Shown here: in pieces, positions 9,532 through 18,511 of the stretch
Position numbering within the stretch: position 1 is the stretch's first letter
Layout of the letters: every line of letters starts with the position of its first letter
DNA from: Acidobacteriota bacterium
GTDB taxonomy: Bacteria > Actinomycetota > Acidimicrobiia > Acidimicrobiales > Microtrichaceae
DNA length: 64,000 bases
Direction: 5' to 3'
Assembly: GCA_003577145.1 (NCBI GenBank)
Contig: QEUP01000013.1
Location: forward strand, 62,001 to 126,000
Program-made: the position numbers and the translations under genes
The notes under the pieces: model-generated
Databases searched by the model: none
Seen by the model: only the letters and a program-made list of their open reading frames with translations
Told to the model about the DNA's origin: nothing

Positions 9532-9915
9532 TCAGATCGCCGCCTCGACTGCTTCGATTATCTCCTCGGCGGAGGCGCCCGGGCCCAGCACCGCCTCGAC
9601 GCCGCCTTCGCGGAGGGATTGAACATCTTGCTCGGGGATGATCCCGCCGACGATCACCGGCGTGTCCAGGCCGGCAGCCCGCAGGCCTTCGACGACCCTG
9701 GGAACCAATGCCATGTGTGCCCCACTGAGCATCGAGAGGCCCACGGCGTCGACGTCCTCGTCGACTGCGGCAGCGACGACGGTTTCGGGGGTCTGGCGCA
9801 GGCCGGTGTAGATGACCTCGTAGCCCGCGTCGCGGAGCAGCCGGGCCACGACCTTTACACCGCGGTCGTGCCCGTCGAGTCCGAGTTTGGCCACTAGTAC
9901 CCGTCGCTCCGCCAT
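9532..9915 (-). CDS. B12-binding small subunit of an acyl-CoA mutase
   Basis: 127 residues, a complete cobalamin-binding Rossmann domain of the DxHxxG class: LGLDGHDRG near residues 12-20 supplies the lower-ligand His, followed by SMLSGAHM and VGGIIPEQD and the GPGAS loop. It is the adenosylcobalamin-binding partner of the large subunit encoded 54 bp upstream, so the two make a split mutase of isobutyryl-/methylmalonyl-CoA mutase type. Confidence 0.92.
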
Positions 9916-9969
9916 GTCCTCCTCCTCCTACGGCGACGCCTAGCCCTGATCGTTCACGGTAGGGCCCGA

Positions 9970-11616
9970 CTAGATGGCGGGGGCCTCTTCCCATCGCCCG
10001 AAGACCTCAGCCAGAGCTTGGACGATCTCCCCGACCGTGGCATGACTGCGGACCGCTTCGAGCAGCGCCGGCATCAGGTTCACGTCCGGTCGTCCGGCAT
10101 CTGCGCGCAGACGGTCGAGCACCGCGTCCACCAGCGATGCATCGCGCTCCGCTTTGATCTCCGCGAGACGTTTCACCTGCAGGCTCTCCACCTCCTGGCC
10201 TATGTAGAGGGTCTCAGGGGGTGGTTCGTCATTGCCCTCGGTGAAGGCGTTCACGCCGACCTTCAGGTGGGTTCCTTCGTTCAGCTTGCGTTCCAGCTGA
10301 TAGGCGCTGTCGGCGATCTCGGCCTGGAACCACCCCTCCTCGATGCCGCCGACCACCCCCTCGAACATCGAGCCGCCACCTCTGTGGTCGATCTGAGCGA
10401 GGAGCTCCTCGGCGCGACGCTCCATCTCCCCGGTGAGAGCCTCGACGAAGTAGGAGCCGCCCAGCGGGTCGGCGACGTGGGGGACCTGCGTCTCGTGGGC
10501 TATGACCTGCTGGGTGCGCAGAGCGATTCGTACAGCCTTCTCGGTGGGTAGGGCCAGGACTTCGTCCATGGAGTTCGTGTGGAGGCTCTGTGTCCCTCCC
10601 AGGACTCCGGCCAGCGCCTCGATCGTCGTCCTGACGATGTTCACCTCCGGCTGCTGCGCCGTGAGGGACACCCCGGCGGTCTGGGTGTGGAAGCGGAGCT
10701 GGAGTGACCGCTCTCGCTCGGCCCGGTAGCGATCCTTCATCCAGCGGGCCCAGATGATGCGAGCAGCCCGATACTTCGCGATCTCCTCGAAGAAGTCGAT
10801 GTGGGCGTTGAAGAAGAACGACAGCCGCGGAGCGAACTCGTCCACGCGGAGGCCACCGGCCAACCCGGCCTCCACGTAGGCGAAGCCGTTGGCGAGGGTG
10901 AAGGCCAACTCCTGCGCCGCGGTCGCGCCGGCCTCGCGGATGTGGTAACCGGACACCGACACCGGATGCCATCGCGGCATCTCGGCGGTGCAGAAGCGCA
11001 GCGTATCGGCCACCATCCGCAGCGACGGCCGCGGTGGGAAGATGTACTCCTTCTGCGCTTGGTACTCCTTGAGGATGTCGTTCTGGAGTGTTCCTCCCAG
11101 GTCGGTGCGGGAGACACCCGAGGCTTCGGCCGCCGTGACGTACATGGCCAGCAGGATCGCCGCCGGCGAGTTGATGGTCATCGACGTCGTGACCCCAGCC
11201 AGGTCTATACCGCGGTAGAGATCTTCGACATCGGCGAGGGTGTCGACTGCCACGCCGCACCTGCCCACTTCGCCCGCGCTGAGCGGATCGTCGGAGTCGC
11301 GGCCCATGAGGGTGGGTAGGTCGAAGGCGGTGGAAAGGCCGTCTCCACCGTGAGCCAGGATCTCCTTGAAGCGCAGATTCGTGTCGACGGCCGTGCCGAA
11401 ACCGGCGAACATCCGCATCGTCCAGAGCTTCGTGCGGTACATCGACGCGTACGGGCCCCGGGCGTAGGGATACTGGCCCGGGAAGTCGCCGTGAACCGCG
11501 TCGGCTGGGCCGTAGACCGGCTCGAGCGGGATGCCGGACATGGTCGAGAAGTCGGCTGGTCGTCGAGGGGAGCGCTCGTACGCGACCGACCAGTCCGCAT
11601 GGGCCTCTTCGCTCAT
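9970..11616 (-). CDS. B12-dependent acyl-CoA mutase large subunit, isobutyryl-CoA mutase-type active site
   Basis: 548-residue TIM-barrel subunit. It aligns well with methylmalonyl-CoA mutase ([70 protein letters not shown]). The two residues that distinguish substrates differ: the position of Tyr89 of methylmalonyl-CoA mutase is Phe (RMFAGF) and that of Arg207 is Gln ([10 protein letters not shown]). Phe/Gln is the combination known from isobutyryl-CoA mutase, which interconverts isobutyryl- and n-butyryl-CoA. The B12-binding domain is absent from this chain and is encoded by the next gene. A MarR gene lies upstream and a candidate operator is just before the start. The substrate call is inference from two positions. 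Confidence 0.85.
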
Positions 11617-12260: not shown

Positions 12261-13145
12261 TCAAGACGGGGTCGGATCGCGCAGGGTCCGGTTGCGGCGG
12301 CGGATCACCACCAGCGCCGTTGCGGGAACCGCCAGCGCGAGGATCGCCAGGACGATCGACAGCGCCGCCGTGCCGCCCCCATCTCGCCGCTCGTCGCCGG
12401 TCGGAGTGCTCGCCAGCTGCAGGTCGGAGTCGGGCGCAGTGGCAACCTCCCCGCCGGTCTCGCCGGCCTCCGGGTCGGTCGGGGACCCCTCCTCGGAAGC
12501 CTCCTCCTGGGGTTCGCCAGCCGTCGACGGCGGGGGTTGGGGGATGTCGGCAGAACCGGGCGCGACCTCGGTCGTCCCGGCGACCCCGACGGGGGTGTCG
12601 CCTTCCTGGTTCGAGGCGGGTGGCTCCGCGGGCAGCGGGGCGGGTGCGGCTGCCGGCACGCTGCTCGTGGACGATGGCTCCGGACCGCAGACCTCGTCGA
12701 CCGACTGGAGACCGGGTTTCTGGTCCCCCGAGGTGAATATCCAACCTTCGACGTCGCCATCGGCGACCGTTGTGGCCGACGCCCCGAGCTCGGAGTACGA
12801 CCACGATCCGGAGCCGCCCGGAGCGCGGTAGTACTTCCAGCTCTTGGGTGCCTGGCAGGTGAAGCACGACGCAGCAGGACACCCTTCGCCTCCTATCGAG
12901 CAGACACCGGCCCCGAGCCCTCCGAAACCGGCGGTCACCAGTTCGAAGCCGGCTGCTCTCAAGGCGTCGACCCCGCTGATGGACGAGGTGGTGAACCGCA
13001 CACAGCGAGCCACCGTTCCTCCCTGGGTGGTCACGATGACCGCCGCCCGATTGGCTCCCACCGCCTCCACCTGATCGGCCTGGGCGAACAGGCCGGCCAC
13101 CGCCGCACACACCACCAACGCGCTCAGCGCCGCTGCTCTCATCAT
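12261..13145 (-). CDS. Secreted, C-terminally anchored protein with DUF4430/transcobalamin beta-domain-like region
   Basis: 294 residues: signal peptide (MMRAAALSALVVCAAVAGLFA), a domain of about 125 residues, a long Pro/Glu/Thr-rich spacer (about 140-245), one C-terminal transmembrane helix (AALSIVLAILALAVPATALV) and a basic tail. The folded domain contains ISGVDALRAAGFEL, FGGLGAGVCSIGGEGCP, SWKYYRAPGGSGSWSYSELG and VADGDVEGW, which I read as a DUF4430-type beta-grasp similar to the C-terminal domain of animal transcobalamin; it may equal the SCO2322 family of Streptomyces. It has six Cys, likely paired outside the cell. A cobalamin riboswitch precedes it and an ECF importer is divergent, so a surface role in cobalamin capture is inferred. 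The start at 13145 has GGAG spaced correctly; 13142 is the alternative. Confidence 0.75.
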   Translation of the reverse strand: MMRAAALSALVVCAAVAGLFAQADQVEAVGANRAAVIVTTQGGTVARCVRFTTSSISGVDALRAAGFELVTAGFGGLGAGVCSIGGEGCPAASCFTCQAPKSWKYYRAPGGSGSWSYSELGASATTVADGDVEGWIFTSGDQKPGLQSVDEVCGPEPSSTSSVPAAAPAPLPAEPPASNQEGDTPVGVAGTTEVAPGSADIPQPPPSTAGEPQEEASEEGSPTDPEAGETGGEVATAPDSDLQLASTPTGDERRDGGGTAALSIVLAILALAVPATALVVIRRRNRTLRDPTPS

Positions 13146-13194
13146 GACTCCTCTCGCCCCATTCCTCGAGGGCGGTTGGGACCGACAGCGTCCG

Positions 13195-13328
13195 CGCTGC
13201 CGAGCGGCTGCAGGTGCTCTGGCTCGTGAGCTCGACGGCTCACTCACAGTTGCGGGACAGCTCCGGACTTGCACCGGCTTCCCCTGCAGTTGTTGTCTGC
13301 GACGGTCATTGCTGATGCCCGTCGTTCG
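13195..13328 (-). ncRNA. Cobalamin riboswitch upstream of the DUF4430-like gene
   Basis: On the minus strand the leader reads GGGAAGCCGGTGCAAGTCC, then GGAGCTGTCCCGCAACTGTG (13247-13282), followed at 13208-13227 by the B12 box ACGAGCCAGAGCACCTGCAG. These are the conserved core blocks of the cobalamin aptamer. The leader ends about 50 nt before the start codon, leaving room for an expression platform over the Shine-Dalgarno. Boundaries are approximate. Confidence 0.9.
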
Positions 13329-13334
13329 GGGCAT

Positions 13335-13363
13335 AACGTATGGGTCCCCGGCGCTCCCGGCAA
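13335..13363 (-). promoter_or_regulatory. Candidate promoter of the riboswitch-DUF4430 transcript
   Basis: On the minus strand, TTGCCG (13358-13363) and TACGTT (13335-13340) are spaced by 17 bp. Initiation would fall near 13328, at the 5' edge of the riboswitch. On the plus strand the region up to ecfT (13329-13457) carries two copies of GGGTCCCCGGCGCT (13342-13355, 13369-13382) and no aptamer core that I could recognise. Confidence 0.4.
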
Positions 13364-13457
13364 GTACCGGGTCCCCGGCGCTTCCCCCTGAGCGTCCCTG
13401 GGGGCAAACCCGCTCCATGCGCCGGTAGCGCTTCCAAGAACCGAGGACGAGGATTCG

Positions 13458-14549
13458 ATGCACGAGCTGGACCGCCTCCACAGCGTCACCTGGGCCTGCT
13501 GGGCGGCGGCGGCGGCCCTCACCGTCGAGATCGCGCCGAATCCGGTCTATGTGGTGCTCGTGATCTCGCTTTCGGCAATCGTGGTCGAGGTGCACGGTAG
13601 GGACAGGCCCTTGGCTCGTGCCTTCCCGATCCTCCTGCTGGTCGGCGCGACCTTCGGAGCGGTCAAGGTGGCGTTGACAGTGCTAACGGTGCACGGTGTC
13701 GGCGACACTGTCGTGACCCTGCCCGAGTGGACCCTCCCGAGGCTGCTGGGGGGCTTCAGCGTCGGGGGTACCGTCGAGCTCGAGGTGATCCTCCAGAGTG
13801 CAGCCGAGGCACTCGTCATCGTGGGAGTCATGGCCGTGTTCGGAGCGTTCAACGCGGTGGTCTCCCACGACCAGCTCGTGCGCGCGCTACCCCGATCGTT
13901 TCACGAAGCCGGCCTCATCGTCACCGTGGCGCTCGCCTTCGTCCCCTCGACGATGGCCACCGTCCGGTCGGTACAGGAGTCCGACCGGGCGCGGACCGGG
14001 GGCCGAATCGTTCGCCGCGGCCGGCTGGTGCGCTTGGCGCTCCCGATTCTCGCGACCGGTCTCGAGAAGGCCATCGACCTGGCGTCGTCCATGGACTCGC
14101 GAGGCTTTGGCCGCGCAGCCGGCACCCGCGGCGAACGGCTGGCGGCCTGGTTCGCAGCAGGCGGGCTGGTGGCTCTGGCCGCGGCGGTCGTGGCGCTCAT
14201 AGGCGGGTCGGCAGGGCTCGGGATTGCGCTTGTCGCCGCCGGTGCATCCCTGATCGTCCTGGCGATCTTCATCGGCTCATCGGCCGACAATCGCTCCCGC
14301 TACAGGCCCCGCGGGCTGACATGGTCCGACGGAGCCGTGATCGTCGCCTCGGCCGCCGCGGTAATCATCCTCTTGGTGTTCCGGTCGTCCGGCATCGGCT
14401 CGCTCAGCTGGGACCCGGTCCCCCTGAGGTTCCCGACGGTGGAGCCAGTGACAGTCGCCGCGATAGCCCTGCTCTCGGCACCCGCGGCGGCCGGGCCGTA
14501 CGCTGAGGCGCTGGTCTTGCCGAGCACGTCAGACGAGGTCCGAGCGTGA
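13458..14549 (+). CDS. ECF transporter transmembrane (T) component, CbiQ family
   Basis: 363-residue integral membrane protein. The family's coupling motifs that contact the ATPases are visible as DRARTGGRIVRR near 175-186 and SMDSRGFGRA near 213-222. Several hydrophobic helices lie before and after, with an extra C-terminal pair compared with short EcfT proteins. The start ATG is preceded by GAGGAC/GAGGATT. The gene overlaps the ATPase gene by 4 bp (GTGA), giving an operon T-A-S. Cobalamin is the probable substrate because riboswitches flank the locus. Confidence 0.88.
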   Translation: MHELDRLHSVTWACWAAAAALTVEIAPNPVYVVLVISLSAIVVEVHGRDRPLARAFPILLLVGATFGAVKVALTVLTVHGVGDTVVTLPEWTLPRLLGGFSVGGTVELEVILQSAAEALVIVGVMAVFGAFNAVVSHDQLVRALPRSFHEAGLIVTVALAFVPSTMATVRSVQESDRARTGGRIVRRGRLVRLALPILATGLEKAIDLASSMDSRGFGRAAGTRGERLAAWFAAGGLVALAAAVVALIGGSAGLGIALVAAGASLIVLAIFIGSSADNRSRYRPRGLTWSDGAVIVASAAAVIILLVFRSSGIGSLSWDPVPLRFPTVEPVTVAAIALLSAPAAAGPYAEALVLPSTSDEVRA

Positions 14550-16174
14550 AGCAGCTCTGCTTCCGCTCGCTCAGCTTCTCCTACCCCTCGCCTGACGGTT
14601 CTCGGGTGTCCCACTCGACGCGGTGGGAGCGCGCTCGGGATGCGATGACCCCCGGCCTGGCGGACATCGACATCGGGCTGGAGCAGGCAGAGCTCGCCCT
14701 CGTCGCCGGCACGTCGGGCTCCGGCAAGAGCACGTTGTTACGTTGTGTGAACGGGCTGGTGCCGCATTCCAGCGGCGGTGTCCTTGTCGGCGAGGTGGTT
14801 GTGGCCAGCCGATCCACGGTACGCAACAAGCCGCGAGATCTCGCCGACCTGGTCGGCTTCGTGCACCAGGATCCCGAAGCGCACTTCGTCGTCGACCGGG
14901 TGGAGGGAGACATCGCCTTCAGCCTCGAGAACCTGGGCACCGAGCCCGACACGATGCGACGGCGGGTGGAGGAGGTGCTCGACGCGCTCGACATCGCGCG
15001 CCTCCGCCACCGTTCGCCTGCCAGCCTCTCCGGCGGTGAACGCCAGCGTTGCGCGATTGCGTCGGCGCTGGCCGTGGGACCGGCGGTCCTCGTCCTCGAC
15101 GAGCCCACCTCCCAACTGGATCCCCAGGGAGCCGAGGATGTGATCGGGGCTGTTGTCCGGCTCAACCAGGACCTCGGCACAACGGTGCTCATGGCCGAGC
15201 ATCGTCTCGAGCGCGTTGCCGCCTTCGCCGACAGGGCGCTGCTCATGGGTGGGGGTCGAGTCGTGGGCGACGGTGACCCGACCGCGGTGCTCGCGGACTA
15301 TCCCGGAGCGCCGCCGGTGACCAGGTTGGGACGGCTGCTGGGGTGGGACCCGCCTCCACTCACAGTGAAGGGCGCTCTCAGCCACCTGCGCCGGGAACCG
15401 GACGCGGTCCCCGTTCCGGTCGACCCCGCCGGCCCGCCGCCGGCGCCGGCGGCCCCGGGAGAAGCGATCGTCACCGCTGAGGGCCTTGACCTTCGTCACG
15501 GGAAGGTGCGCGTCCTTTCCGACGTCAGCTTCACCGCCAAGGAGGGAGAAGCGATCGCCGTGCTGGGCCGGAACGGCTCGGGCAAGACCACCCTGCTGAG
15601 GACGTTGGCCGGCCTCCATCGCCCGCAGAAAGGCAAGGTCGATTGTCTGCGGCGCGCCTCTTACGTGCCCCAGGACCCCAACACCTTGCTCTCGGCTCCC
15701 ACCGTGCGCGCCGAGCTCGAGCAGACGCAGCGGCTGCTGGGGCGGGTCGACCACCGAGCCGTCGACCACTGGCTCGATCGGCTGCACCTCACGCATCTGG
15801 CACCACGCCACCCGCGGTCCCTGTCGAGCGGTGAGAGGCAACGGGTAGCCATCGCAGCCGTCGCCGTAGGCGGTGCTGAGCTGCTGTTGCTCGACGAACC
15901 GACCCGTGGCATGGATGCCGAATCCCGGGAGGCTCTGCGTTCGGCCATCACCTCCCATGTCGCATCCGGCGGATCGGTGGTCCTCGCCACCCACGACGTG
16001 GAGCTGGCCGCCGGCTGTGCGACGACCGTCGTGGTCCTCGGTGAAGGCCAGATCGTCGCTGCCGGCGCCGGCCGCACCGTTCTCACGGGTTCGTTGTTCG
16101 CTCCGCAGGTACTGAGGGTCATGCCACCGTTCCTGACCGTGGACGAAGTGCGGGCAGCGAGGACGAGCGCGTGA
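14546..16174 (+). CDS. ECF transporter ATPase, two ABC domains fused (A1-A2)
   Basis: 542 residues with two complete nucleotide-binding domains. Domain 1: Walker A GTSGSGKSTLL near 54-64, signature LSGGERQRCAIASAL near 162, Walker B VLVLDEPTSQLD. Domain 2 (from about 310): Walker A GRNGSGKTTLL, signature LSSGERQRVAIA, Walker B LLLLDEPTRG, H-loop ATHD. Both sites look catalytically intact. The GTG start overlaps the T-component stop, and its own stop overlaps the GTG of the S component (GTGA both times), so the three subunits are translationally coupled. Confidence 0.92.
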   Translation: MKQLCFRSLSFSYPSPDGSRVSHSTRWERARDAMTPGLADIDIGLEQAELALVAGTSGSGKSTLLRCVNGLVPHSSGGVLVGEVVVASRSTVRNKPRDLADLVGFVHQDPEAHFVVDRVEGDIAFSLENLGTEPDTMRRRVEEVLDALDIARLRHRSPASLSGGERQRCAIASALAVGPAVLVLDEPTSQLDPQGAEDVIGAVVRLNQDLGTTVLMAEHRLERVAAFADRALLMGGGRVVGDGDPTAVLADYPGAPPVTRLGRLLGWDPPPLTVKGALSHLRREPDAVPVPVDPAGPPPAPAAPGEAIVTAEGLDLRHGKVRVLSDVSFTAKEGEAIAVLGRNGSGKTTLLRTLAGLHRPQKGKVDCLRRASYVPQDPNTLLSAPTVRAELEQTQRLLGRVDHRAVDHWLDRLHLTHLAPRHPRSLSSGERQRVAIAAVAVGGAELLLLDEPTRGMDAESREALRSAITSHVASGGSVVLATHDVELAAGCATTVVVLGEGQIVAAGAGRTVLTGSLFAPQVLRVMPPFLTVDEVRAARTSA

Positions 16175-16995
16175 CCCGGGACCGCCTGACCGCCGGCACG
16201 GCTCTCATCTACACGATGGTGGGGATCTGCGGTGTCGCAGCCTTCCTCTATCCGTTCTGGCTGCCGGGCCGAGCACTTCCATCCGAAGCTCACTCCACTA
16301 CCGCGCCCTTCGTTGCGGCTCTCATGGCAACCCTGGTGATGCTTGCCGTGACCGTCGAGATCAGGCAGGGCACCATGAGCGGCTCCACCGTGGCGGTGCT
16401 GGCCGTGCTCGCGTCGAGTGCCGGCATGCTCAGACTCCTCGACCTGCCGGGTGGGGGCAGCGGGATCTTCTTCCTGGTGGTGCTGGGAGGGGCCGCCTTC
16501 GGGGCCCGCTTCGGGATCCTTCTCGGGCTATCGGCCATGGCGGTGTCGGCCGTGCTGACCGGTGGCATCGGGCCGTGGCTGCCCTTCCAGATGCTCGGTC
16601 TGGGCCTGATGGGAGCGCTGGCAGGATGGGTCGGCTCCTTGACCCGGCGCCTGCCGGCTCGTGGGGAGGTGATCGTGCTCGCAGCACTGGGCTGGGTTTC
16701 GGGCTTCCTGTACGGGGCGGTGCTCAACCTGTGGTTCTGGCCCTTTGCCATCGGCGAAGGGCCGCTGTCGTGGAACCCCGGACTGGGCCTCACCGAGACG
16801 ATCGAGCACTACTGGTCCTTCTACGTCGCCACGTCGCTGGCCTGGGACGCCGCGGGAGCTCTCATGAACGCGGTGCTCATACTCGTCACCGGCATTCCCG
16901 TGATGCGCACGCTGAGGCGCTTCTCGAGCCGGCTGCTGCCCGCCGTCCACATCGAGGCTCCCACCGAGCTCAGCCTTGACGCACCCGTGGGCTGA
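16171..16995 (+). CDS. ECF transporter substrate-binding (S) component, probable cobalamin type
   Basis: 274-residue membrane protein with about six or seven hydrophobic helices; GGGAAFGARFGILLGLSAMA and the GPWLPFQMLGLGLMGALAGW segment resemble the conserved face of ECF S components such as CbrT. It is cotranscribed with the T and A subunits (4-bp overlap). Assignment to cobalamin comes from the riboswitches on both flanks and the secreted partner genes, not from substrate-site residues. Confidence 0.8.
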   Translation: MTRDRLTAGTALIYTMVGICGVAAFLYPFWLPGRALPSEAHSTTAPFVAALMATLVMLAVTVEIRQGTMSGSTVAVLAVLASSAGMLRLLDLPGGGSGIFFLVVLGGAAFGARFGILLGLSAMAVSAVLTGGIGPWLPFQMLGLGLMGALAGWVGSLTRRLPARGEVIVLAALGWVSGFLYGAVLNLWFWPFAIGEGPLSWNPGLGLTETIEHYWSFYVATSLAWDAAGALMNAVLILVTGIPVMRTLRRFSSRLLPAVHIEAPTELSLDAPVG

Positions 16996-17035
16996 CCTTG
17001 GTTCTTCCGGGTGCGGACCGGGCCGTCAGAGGGGG

Positions 17036-17064
17036 TTGACACGACGAGCCGGCCCTGCTTGCAT
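17036..17064 (+). promoter_or_regulatory. Candidate promoter before the second riboswitch
   Basis: A perfect TTGACA (17036-17041) is followed after 17 bp by TTGCAT (17059-17064). It lies between the S-component stop and the aptamer, so the toroid gene can be transcribed on its own, separately from the ECF operon. Confidence 0.5.
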
Positions 17065-17067
17065 ACG

Positions 17068-17180
17068 GGCCGACGAGTACCGCAGCGGCGCTCGGGGGAA
17101 GCCGGTCAGAAGCCGGCGCTGTCCCGCAGCCGTGGGTCGGGAGCGATCCCGACGAGCCGGAGTACCCGGTGTCGCTGTAC
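17068..17180 (+). ncRNA. Cobalamin riboswitch upstream of the toroid-protein gene
   Basis: Core blocks in order: CTCGGGGGAAGCCGGTC (17091-17107), AGCCGGCGCTGTCCCGCAGC (17111-17130), a GGTCGGGAGCGATCCCGAC stem-loop (17135-17153) and the B12 box GAGCCGGAGTACCCGGT (17154-17170). A perfect 7-bp stem (CTGCGGA at 17230-17236, TCCGCAG at 17250-17256) downstream is a candidate part of the expression platform. The toroid gene starts at 17291. Confidence 0.9.
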
Positions 17181-17290
17181 GGCTCTCCACCCCCGTCGAG
17201 GACAACGGGGACGAGCCTCGGGATGTCCTCTGCGGAGGCCGACGCAAGGTCCGCAGTCGAGGTTCCCAGGCCATAGCGAAAGGGAACTTC

Positions 17291-18511
17291 ATGGCACGAG
17301 GACGAACGGTCGCGGCCCTTGTCGCGGCGATGCTCTTGAGCGTCTGGTCAATCACGGCGATCGGTGCGGAGCCGCTCACCGACGACCCCCGCCAGGCGGC
17401 CGAATACGGCGCCGGTTGGCTGGCTGGTCTGCTCGACGGCGACGGATCCGTCGGTGACGCCGGTGCGAACCTGAGCACCGCGCTGGCGCTCGCGTCGTCT
17501 CGAACCGAGGGCGACGCTTTCGACGCCGTCATGGGCTGGCTACGGGCCAATGCGGAGTCCGTGATCAGCGACGGCTCGGCGGACATGCCCGGTCGCCTGG
17601 GACGTCTGATCCTTGTCGCAGTGGCGGCGGGCGACGATCCCCGCGCGTTCGGGTCCGGTTCGCTGGATCTGGTCGGGCGCCTCCAGGCCACCCTCGGCTC
17701 CCACTCCGGAGGGCTGTTCGGCGCGCAGGATCCCACCTACGACGGCGCCTTCCGCCAGGGGCTGGCCCTCCTCGGGCTCCGGGCCGCCGGAGTGACTCCC
17801 TCGGACTGGCCTCCCATGCAGGATGCCATCGACTGGTTGATCGCTCAGCAGTGCGGTGCCGAGAGCCCGCCGGAGTTCCGGGGAGCATGGATGGGCTACC
17901 GCAGCGACACCGGCGCGCCGTGTCTGTCGGATCCGGTCACGTTCGCCGCGCCCGACACCAACCAGACGGCTCTGGCCGTCCAGGGTCTGGAGGCGAACGG
18001 TGTTTCGAGCGGGACCGACTCCGCACTCGACTACTTCGAGTTGGTCCAGGAGGATGACGGCGGGTTTCCCTTCCAGCAGGGCTATGGGAGTGATCCCAAC
18101 TCGACGGCCCTCGTGATCCAGGCGCTGGTCTCCGCCGGGCAGGATCCTCGTTCCTCGCGCTGGAGCGCCGCCGGCCCCTCACCCTATGAGTCGCTGCTCT
18201 CGTGGCAACTCGGCTGCGACTCCCCTGTCGGCGAGCGCGGCGCGTTTTCGTCACCGTTCTCGGACAGCTCGCCGGATGCCTTCGCAACGGTCGATGCCGT
18301 GCCCGGCGCTGCGGGCGTCGCGTATCCATTGCCACCCGTCGACCTCGAGCCGAACGGGTCGACTCCGGATTGCGGTGACGGCGACGACCCCGGTGATCGA
18401 ACGCCCGCAGGCGATGATCCGCCCAAGGTGGCCACGAGCACCGAGGACCGGGCCCCGGCGGCCTCAGGTCCGGCTGTGGCCGTCACCGGGGACCCGCAGT
18501 TCACCGGCTGA
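17291..18511 (+). CDS. Secreted alpha-toroid protein, transcobalamin alpha-domain-like
   Basis: 406 residues with a signal peptide (VAALVAAMLLSVWSITAIGA, cleavage about residue 26). The body shows helical repeats of the prenyltransferase/squalene-cyclase alpha6-alpha6 toroid: SGGLFGAQDPTYDGAFRQGL near 138, DTNQTALAVQGLEANG near 220 and EDDGGFPFQQGYGSDPNSTA near 250. It has paired Cys in the mature part, a Pro/Asp/Thr-rich tail, and ends in GDPQFTG without a membrane helix. The fold is that of the alpha-domain of animal intrinsic factor and transcobalamin. No prenyltransferase or cyclase catalytic motif is seen. Position behind a cobalamin riboswitch and next to the ECF genes makes an extracellular cobalamin-binding role the best inference. 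The ATG follows AAGGGAAC. Confidence 0.8.
   Translation: MARGRTVAALVAAMLLSVWSITAIGAEPLTDDPRQAAEYGAGWLAGLLDGDGSVGDAGANLSTALALASSRTEGDAFDAVMGWLRANAESVISDGSADMPGRLGRLILVAVAAGDDPRAFGSGSLDLVGRLQATLGSHSGGLFGAQDPTYDGAFRQGLALLGLRAAGVTPSDWPPMQDAIDWLIAQQCGAESPPEFRGAWMGYRSDTGAPCLSDPVTFAAPDTNQTALAVQGLEANGVSSGTDSALDYFELVQEDDGGFPFQQGYGSDPNSTALVIQALVSAGQDPRSSRWSAAGPSPYESLLSWQLGCDSPVGERGAFSSPFSDSSPDAFATVDAVPGAAGVAYPLPPVDLEPNGSTPDCGDGDDPGDRTPAGDDPPKVATSTEDRAPAASGPAVAVTGDPQFTG

Follow-up and report, generated by a model that had tools for sequence, protein, structure and literature searches.

The 64,000-nucleotide stretch analysed here (the window; contig QEUP01000013.1 of assembly GCA_003577145.1, positions 62,001–126,000) comes from a genome deposited as Acidobacteriota bacterium and placed by GTDB in the actinobacterial family Microtrichaceae. 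It contains an energy-coupling factor (ECF) T-A1A2-S operon that sits between the genes of two secreted proteins, an apparently membrane-tethered beta chain (P0001) and an alpha chain (P0002), each with its own cobalamin riboswitch upstream. This locus probably encodes a two-chain corrinoid capture device that feeds an ECF-type B12 importer, for which we infer the binding, closure and hand-off steps. We also lean slightly toward the fuller proposal that the pair is a bacterial two-chain transcobalamin that closes only in the presence of a corrinoid, both partners of which were circularly permuted toward Streptomyces and its relatives while staying partners.

As judged from the riboswitch class, low intracellular cobalamin would presumably permit production of both surface proteins, and riboswitch control would restrict capture to B12 shortage. 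The alpha chain, an alpha/alpha toroid in its predicted model, would be secreted, while the beta domain, whose fold is also taken from a model, would be held on a flexible linker and tethered to the membrane by a C-terminal helix recognised from hydropathy. By analogy with the separated domains of human transcobalamin in vitro, one chain would catch cobalamin and the other would close over it. The beta anchor would keep the closed complex near EcfS, to which the tethered complex would pass cobalamin, and T-A1A2 would then carry out the import. In passages of the study of human transcobalamin, the separately expressed alpha and beta domains assemble only with cobalamin, and the beta domain alone binds cyanocobalamin and was crystallised with cobalamin (PMC5599065).

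The beta chain has a predicted transcobalamin fold

P0001 (294 amino acids; 12261..13145, minus strand) consists of a signal-like N-terminus, a beta domain, a linker rich in serine, threonine and proline, and, at the C-terminus, a hydrophobic helix that ends in RRR and that hydropathy indicates as an apparent membrane tether. Signal peptides of both chains were judged by eye. The beta domain proper (residues 22–165; 12651..13082, minus strand), which is beta-grasp-like and in transcobalamin order, was folded with AlphaFold2 from an alignment of 17 sequences, excluding L088, the N-terminal half of which is apparently frame-shifted. The resulting model (predicted local distance difference test score (pLDDT) of 79.8) shows two long strands followed by a short helix, a hairpin and more strands. 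Foldseek ranked transcobalamin first for this model with a probability of 1.00. In VIA, rows 1–15 were the beta domains of transcobalamin, intrinsic factor and haptocorrin together with the Ruminococcus protein 3u7z, at Z-scores of 10.8–11.6; the top rows had root-mean-square deviations of 2.1–2.5 Å across 95–101 residues, and the next, unrelated row had a Z-score of 5.6. The range 8–119 of the model superposes on transcobalamin residues 309–409, and 5np4 is among the rows listed. The predicted structure supports the fold of the second transcobalamin domain, which an earlier note on this DNA had proposed for the beta chain, and indicates that the transcobalamin order is retained as well.

The same note had called the domain DUF4430-like, a description that profile comparison and the predicted fold bear out and that Pfam hidden Markov models (HMMs) do not. 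Neither P0001 nor any of 11 A1 or 17 A3 alignment members matched PF14478 (DUF4430) at the gathering score, and no Pfam model rose above chance for P0001 or its relatives. Because these models miss DUF4430, the likeness of the beta chain to DUF4430 and transcobalamin is visible only through profile–profile comparison and predicted structure. Alignment of the 24-row canonical beta profile with an actinobacterial DUF4430 profile of 30 rows by hhalign gave 75% and an E-value of 2.4e-5. Two of these rows (L151 and L157) were wrongly cut, and the 28 good rows gave 89.9% and an E-value of 1.7e-6 over the full length and in the same order, compared with 0.1% for a reversed control. At the profile level, homology in the same order therefore appears good, yet short of certainty.

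P0001 also matched SCO2322_fam (NF040672) at an E-value of 7.1e-5 and 23.2 bits, under the cut-off of 85, and all 17 canonical beta domains (17/17) matched this family at E ≤ 0.01, with a best value of 6.2e-23. A search of PDB sequences with P0001 alone returned only DJ-1-like rows at E-values of 0.2 or worse, which were judged to be chance. The earlier note had described one chain as anchored and the other as soluble. This holds in the window but not in general, as a C-terminal hydrophobic helix is found in 67 of 78 beta rows and also in 35 of 88 alpha rows among the relatives. At the end of the beta chain from Streptomyces locus L098 (L098:11170-11757), residues 168–194 constitute a GPS-CTERM domain (NF040681, 36.8 bits, cut-off 28).

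The alpha chain is a predicted alpha/alpha toroid

P0002 (406 amino acids; 17291..18511, plus strand) lacks a C-terminal hydrophobic helix, has a PQFTG end and was predicted by AlphaFold2 to be an alpha/alpha toroid (pLDDT 86.9). It matched SCO2321_fam (NF053823) at an E-value of 7.6e-56 and 189.7 bits, under the cut-off of 300, so that the SCO2322-type profile check proposed in the earlier note yielded recognisable matches for both chains that miss the curated cut-offs. The other profile check, with Pfam models of DUF4430 and PF01122, gave no match for either protein. A PDB search with the P0002 sequence alone returned one row (E 1.2), judged to be chance. Rat transcobalamin matched the alpha model with a Z-score of 20.1. 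The alpha fold fits a transcobalamin-like lid in this model, yet does not single one out. The resemblance to intrinsic factor that the earlier note had claimed for this chain stands for the toroid architecture and not as a specific likeness, because squalene-hopene cyclases score higher and other toroids tie with intrinsic factor.

The DVDD (DXDD) motif is the proton-donor motif of squalene-hopene cyclase. In the profile alignment, the alpha family carries D-x-N-x at this position, and both residues are unchanged in every row of two sets (15 of 15 and 27 of 27). Among 88 alpha blocks, the only DXDD was a DDDD loop at another site in L089. A cyclase function of the alpha chain was rejected because the motif is missing at the catalytic position.

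The C-termini of the alpha chains show further features. Those of the window and of L066, L067, L068, L073, L085 and L089, several of them Microthrix-like, end exactly in FTG-stop and lack the hydrophobic helix found after LPxTG-like motifs elsewhere among the relatives. In P0002 this end lies at window positions 18497–18511. The genome of the window encodes two more glycine-rich, signal-bearing proteins that terminate in PRFTG-stop (G000:C19, L183/L212; G000:C68, L209), and the FTG-stop ending is possibly an undescribed C-terminal sorting signal. The alpha chains of L057, L079, L082, L083, L084 and L097 end in other modules (repeats, immunoglobulin-like or SLH-like by eye) without a hydrophobic helix, hinting at an alternative route of attachment. 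A diverged toroid gene (E ~1e-25 to 1e-53) is located near the beta gene in L058, L062–L065 and L069; L058 and L069 carry a typical alpha gene in addition.

Riboswitches, the importer and the probable need for B12

The aptamer before the beta gene (13213..13283, minus strand; RF00174 model positions 46–168, 35.5 bits) lies ~70 bases upstream of the start, and that before the alpha gene (17072..17187, plus strand; full length, 37.5 bits) lies ~100 bases upstream, as located by cmscan. Both exceed the Rfam gathering score of 31.5 for RF00174, in agreement with the riboswitch that the earlier note had placed before each secreted-protein gene. The cmscan of the window detected no riboswitch before EcfT on the T-A-S strand.

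The gene set and coordinates given earlier for the operon and its two flanking genes also hold. The T, A and S components of an ECF transporter are all recognisable, with the CbiQ match under its cut-off. The EcfT-like transmembrane coupling protein (13458..14549, plus strand) weakly resembles CbiQ (PF02361, E 2.5e-4, 21.2 bits, cut-off 25). The fused double ATPase EcfA1A2 (14546..16174, plus strand) has two ABC_tran stretches and matches cbiO (TIGR01166) at 263.5 bits, above the NCBIfam cut-off of 211.8. The substrate-binding membrane component EcfS (16171..16995, plus strand) matches the Pfam family ECF_trnsprt (PF12822) at 37.8 bits, above the cut-off of 30.7.

In the genome, which is 96.6% complete, cobB has no match, and the best of three cobQ matches scored 31.5 bits where the cut-off is 309.9. 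Since cobB was not matched and no cobQ match exceeds its cut-off, the cell is probably dependent on B12 uptake. Downstream of the beta gene and on the same strand (9532–11616, minus strand) are genes for an acyl-CoA mutase large subunit and a separate B12-binding small subunit, with a MarR regulator gene between the beta gene and this pair.

The two chains occur together across genomes

An alpha-alignment search of one genome per species, covering 84,980 species and using one peptide pattern, yielded 126 loci, and the analysis retained the best 80. Among these best 80 of 126, a beta gene lay within the fetched stretch in 67, all five genes were together in 47, and 45 showed the one-strand order alpha-beta-T-A-S. 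The co-occurrence of the pair with ECF T-A-S, which the earlier note had suggested as a check, was thus borne out; of the three outcomes that the note named as refuting its proposal, two, a missing structural match and missing co-occurrence, were not observed. A fused alpha-beta open reading frame (ORF), sought as linking evidence, was absent from 92 loci, 77 of which have a beta domain.

Across 148 genomes from the taxonomic order to which the window belongs, beta was present in 22 and alpha (E < 1e-15) in 16, with both in 15 (Fisher p 2e-14); at E < 1e-10, 18 of 19 genomes with alpha also have beta (p 2e-18), both limits having been chosen after the list was seen and the related genomes not being independent. 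At the tool's own limit of E ≤ 1e-3, alpha-like matches were found in 45 genomes, 19 of them with beta (p 5e-9), many of these matches being weak and in ORFs longer than 600 amino acids. The two genes are far apart or on separate contigs in G161, G193, G341 and G053, so the link between alpha and beta goes beyond operon structure. In G004, alpha and beta each have two matches, located at two sites. The alpha-beta system is real and widely conserved.

Riboswitch control likewise recurs among relatives. Of 100 fetched loci, 36 were scanned (L053 and L087 being one contig), and in 27 of these a cobalamin or AdoCbl-II riboswitch directly precedes one of these genes. The 27 include 14 of 18 loci in a first set, 5 of 7 permuted operons and 8 of 11 alpha loci that lack beta in the fetched stretch.

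Circular permutation affects both chains in the same lineages

The order of sequence blocks within both chains differs among relatives, a circular permutation that is new and goes beyond the earlier note's account. P0002 comprises block A1 (residues ~40–134; 17408..17692, plus strand), followed by block A2 (residues ~139–365; 17705..18385, plus strand). In Streptomyces, Nanopelagicales, Frankiaceae and several genomes labelled Micrococcales, A1 is moved to the C-terminal side and A2 is N-terminal. In the same lineages, the C-terminal half of the beta domain (YWxYW...DGxVEGWRF) is moved to the N-terminal side. Profile comparison equated permuted alpha positions 22–224 with canonical positions 115–321 (100%, E 1.9e-64) and 239–345 with 9–113 (99.6%, E 4.3e-24); for beta, permuted positions 4–48 corresponded to canonical 78–123 (98.9%) and 68–143 to 4–77 (98.7%). 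The independently built NCBIfam SCO2321 model agrees, as its positions 33–245 correspond to A2 and its positions 256–354 to the preceding A1 stretch (E 5.3e-8). The possibility that toroid repeats create a false alpha permutation was rejected because the block matches are far stronger than repeat-shifted alternatives, which reached 1.4e-13 or weaker, and because beta shows the same swap.

Block HMM calls, which excluded rows above an E-value of 1e-15, assigned 38 alpha chains as canonical, 51 as permuted and 7 as undetermined; for beta the numbers were 26, 31 and 21, respectively. The order of motifs settled all 21 of these remaining beta rows except L107 and L130. By HMM and motif order together, all 48 rows with permuted alpha also had permuted beta, and all 22 with canonical alpha had canonical beta, leaving no mixed pair among the 70 classifiable rows (0/70). 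These 70 rows represent 67 distinct loci, as L069 was counted twice and L046 and L071 are one contig, as are L047 and L076, and four of the 22 canonical beta rows were called by HMM alone (L058, L069 twice and L086). Left out of the pair count were L109 and L122 (alpha undetermined) and L062–L065 (alpha weak); the beta orders of L109 and L062–L065 are canonical, with L122 as the exception.

Permuted rows cluster on a quick alpha tree. The Frankiaceae pair L078/L080 falls among canonical alpha rows through unstarred branches, and an approximately unbiased (AU) test did not reject a single permuted clade (p 0.276). The concordance of the 70 rows therefore reflects few evolutionary events. A search for duplication intermediates of the permutation returned two weak multi-hits only (L114 and L105), neither of them convincing. 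In the window, both chains have the canonical order, opposite to that of the Streptomyces type. Since the window's beta order is that of transcobalamin, the Streptomyces-type arrangement presumably arose later. If the two chains do interact, their joint permutation would suggest that hand-off depends on where their ends lie (the anchor, the linker or the side facing EcfS). Four contigs with metagenome-assembled genome labels, L119 (Rubrivirga), L123 (Acidobacteria), L127 (Bifidobacterium breve) and L069 (Lapillicoccus), lie inside other groups of the alpha tree and may be misbinned or misnamed.

Points against two-chain capture and alternative explanations

Several observations weigh against the two-chain capture device. 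For the alpha model, squalene-hopene cyclases (Z 25.8) outrank intrinsic factor (Z 21.3 over 249 residues), which scores no better than RabGGTase, AprG or cellobiose epimerase. Against PDB sequences, the alpha profile found cyclases first (E 6e-21), with transcobalamin absent from its matches, and the beta profile found no transcobalamin, so that structure alone showed the match. The Foldseek E-values for the beta model are weak, 1e-2 at best. Thirteen of the 80 alpha loci have no beta in the fetched stretch, some of them at contig ends. Beta occurs without alpha in 7 of 22 genomes at E < 1e-15, in 4 of 22 at E < 1e-10 (G034, G040, G415 and G417) and in 3 of 22 at E ≤ 1e-3, and the reverse is seen in G010, where alpha lies at a contig end and beta is missing. 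No riboswitch rose above threshold in 9 of the 36 scanned loci (L055, L056, L058 and L065; L066, L073 and L108, with alpha and without beta in the fetched stretch; and L091 and L095, with permuted operons). EcfS has no relative among PDB sequences at E-values up to 1, and its cobalamin specificity therefore rests on regulation and context.

In one alternative, beta alone would be a tethered corrinoid receptor for EcfS and alpha a separate B12-regulated factor, such as a diffusible corrinoid carrier, with no closed sandwich. The isolated human beta domain binds cyanocobalamin unaided, according to the passages cited above (PMC5599065). Alpha is sometimes encoded away from beta and T-A-S yet behind a riboswitch (the 8 of 11 loci noted above), and the window's alpha chain lacks a C-terminal helix, while in 35 of 88 rows the relatives' alpha chains appear to be anchored themselves. 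We nevertheless consider this arrangement unlikely, as alpha and beta co-occur per genome even when unlinked, both genes lie within one stretch in 67 of the best 80 loci, and the topology of both chains has changed in the same lineages.

The cyclase matches of alpha, which are its best by both profile and fold, would suit a secreted enzyme of terpene-cyclase/prenyltransferase fold, or one that modifies corrinoids, rather than a binding lid. Given the D-x-N-x at the DVDD position and the B12 riboswitch control of the alpha gene, we regard such an enzyme as quite improbable; the missing motif bears on the cyclase, and a corrinoid-modifying activity may still be present. Import of cobalt or of another non-corrinoid, with riboswitches that merely sense B12 status, would accord with the resemblance of EcfT and EcfA to CbiQ and CbiO; passages of one study also place cobalt importers under B12 riboswitches (PMC3766115). 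This seems very improbable indeed, because EcfS belongs to the general ECF_trnsprt family, the beta chain has a predicted transcobalamin fold, and a cell without cobB and cobQ would gain little from cobalt for B12. Two-chain capture of corrinoids thus continues to be our preferred interpretation of the locus.

Relation to known systems and significance

The Streptomyces families SCO2321 (NF053823) and SCO2322 (NF040672) are clear homologues of the window's alpha and beta chains and share the same ECF gene neighbourhood, with cobalamin riboswitches where scanned. The window's chains differ from them in scoring below the NCBI cut-offs (189.7 against 300 and 23.2 against 85), whereas Streptomyces L098 scores 575.5 and 231.7, and in having the sequence blocks of both chains swapped. 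Both families bear locus-tag names only, with no function given, and a literature search for 'SCO2321' and 'SCO2322' found nothing relevant. Animal transcobalamin, intrinsic factor and haptocorrin share the predicted beta fold and order and have a toroid for the other part (intrinsic factor, Z 21.3). They are single chains, whereas the window has two genes, with beta apparently membrane-tethered, and its alpha chain is nearer to squalene-hopene cyclase by fold and has no Pfam HMM match.

The idea of two-chain B12 capture, put forward in the earlier note, is partly in print already. Passages of Burroughs 2007 describe transcobalamin-like SLBB domains in Gram-positive bacteria, often fused to toroids and encoded in operons with CbiO/CbiQ, for which B12 scavenging was proposed, and propose that paired extracellular SLBB proteins form surface complexes (PMC1796856). 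These proteins resemble those of the window in combining a secreted transcobalamin-type beta-grasp domain with CbiO/CbiQ operons. In that account the toroid is fused N- or C-terminally to SLBB, whereas here no ORF in 92 loci has both; the actinobacterial pair and the permutation do not appear in those passages (PMC1796856). ECF-CbrT shares the principle of ECF import with a dedicated S component; the sections consulted describe no extracellular binding protein (PMC5997447), and the EcfS of the window matched no PDB sequence. In passages of PMC1949818, permutation refers to E1/UFD only. Our literature search, which covered few subscription papers, found no account of the actinobacterial two-chain pair, its coupling to this ECF operon or the permutation.

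Little is known of how Gram-positive cells gather scarce corrinoids for import by ECF systems, which, to our knowledge, are commonly depicted as lacking an extracellular binding protein. If the proposal is true, a B12 trap of two chains would add a ligand-gated capture step to ECF import, the two Streptomyces families SCO2321 and SCO2322 would gain functions, and both parts of the animal B12 carriers would exist as separate bacterial partners. Because both partners were circularly permuted in the same lineages, nature would here offer an experiment on which termini the complex needs, and the system lends itself to testing, as the proteins are small and secreted and the ligand is coloured.

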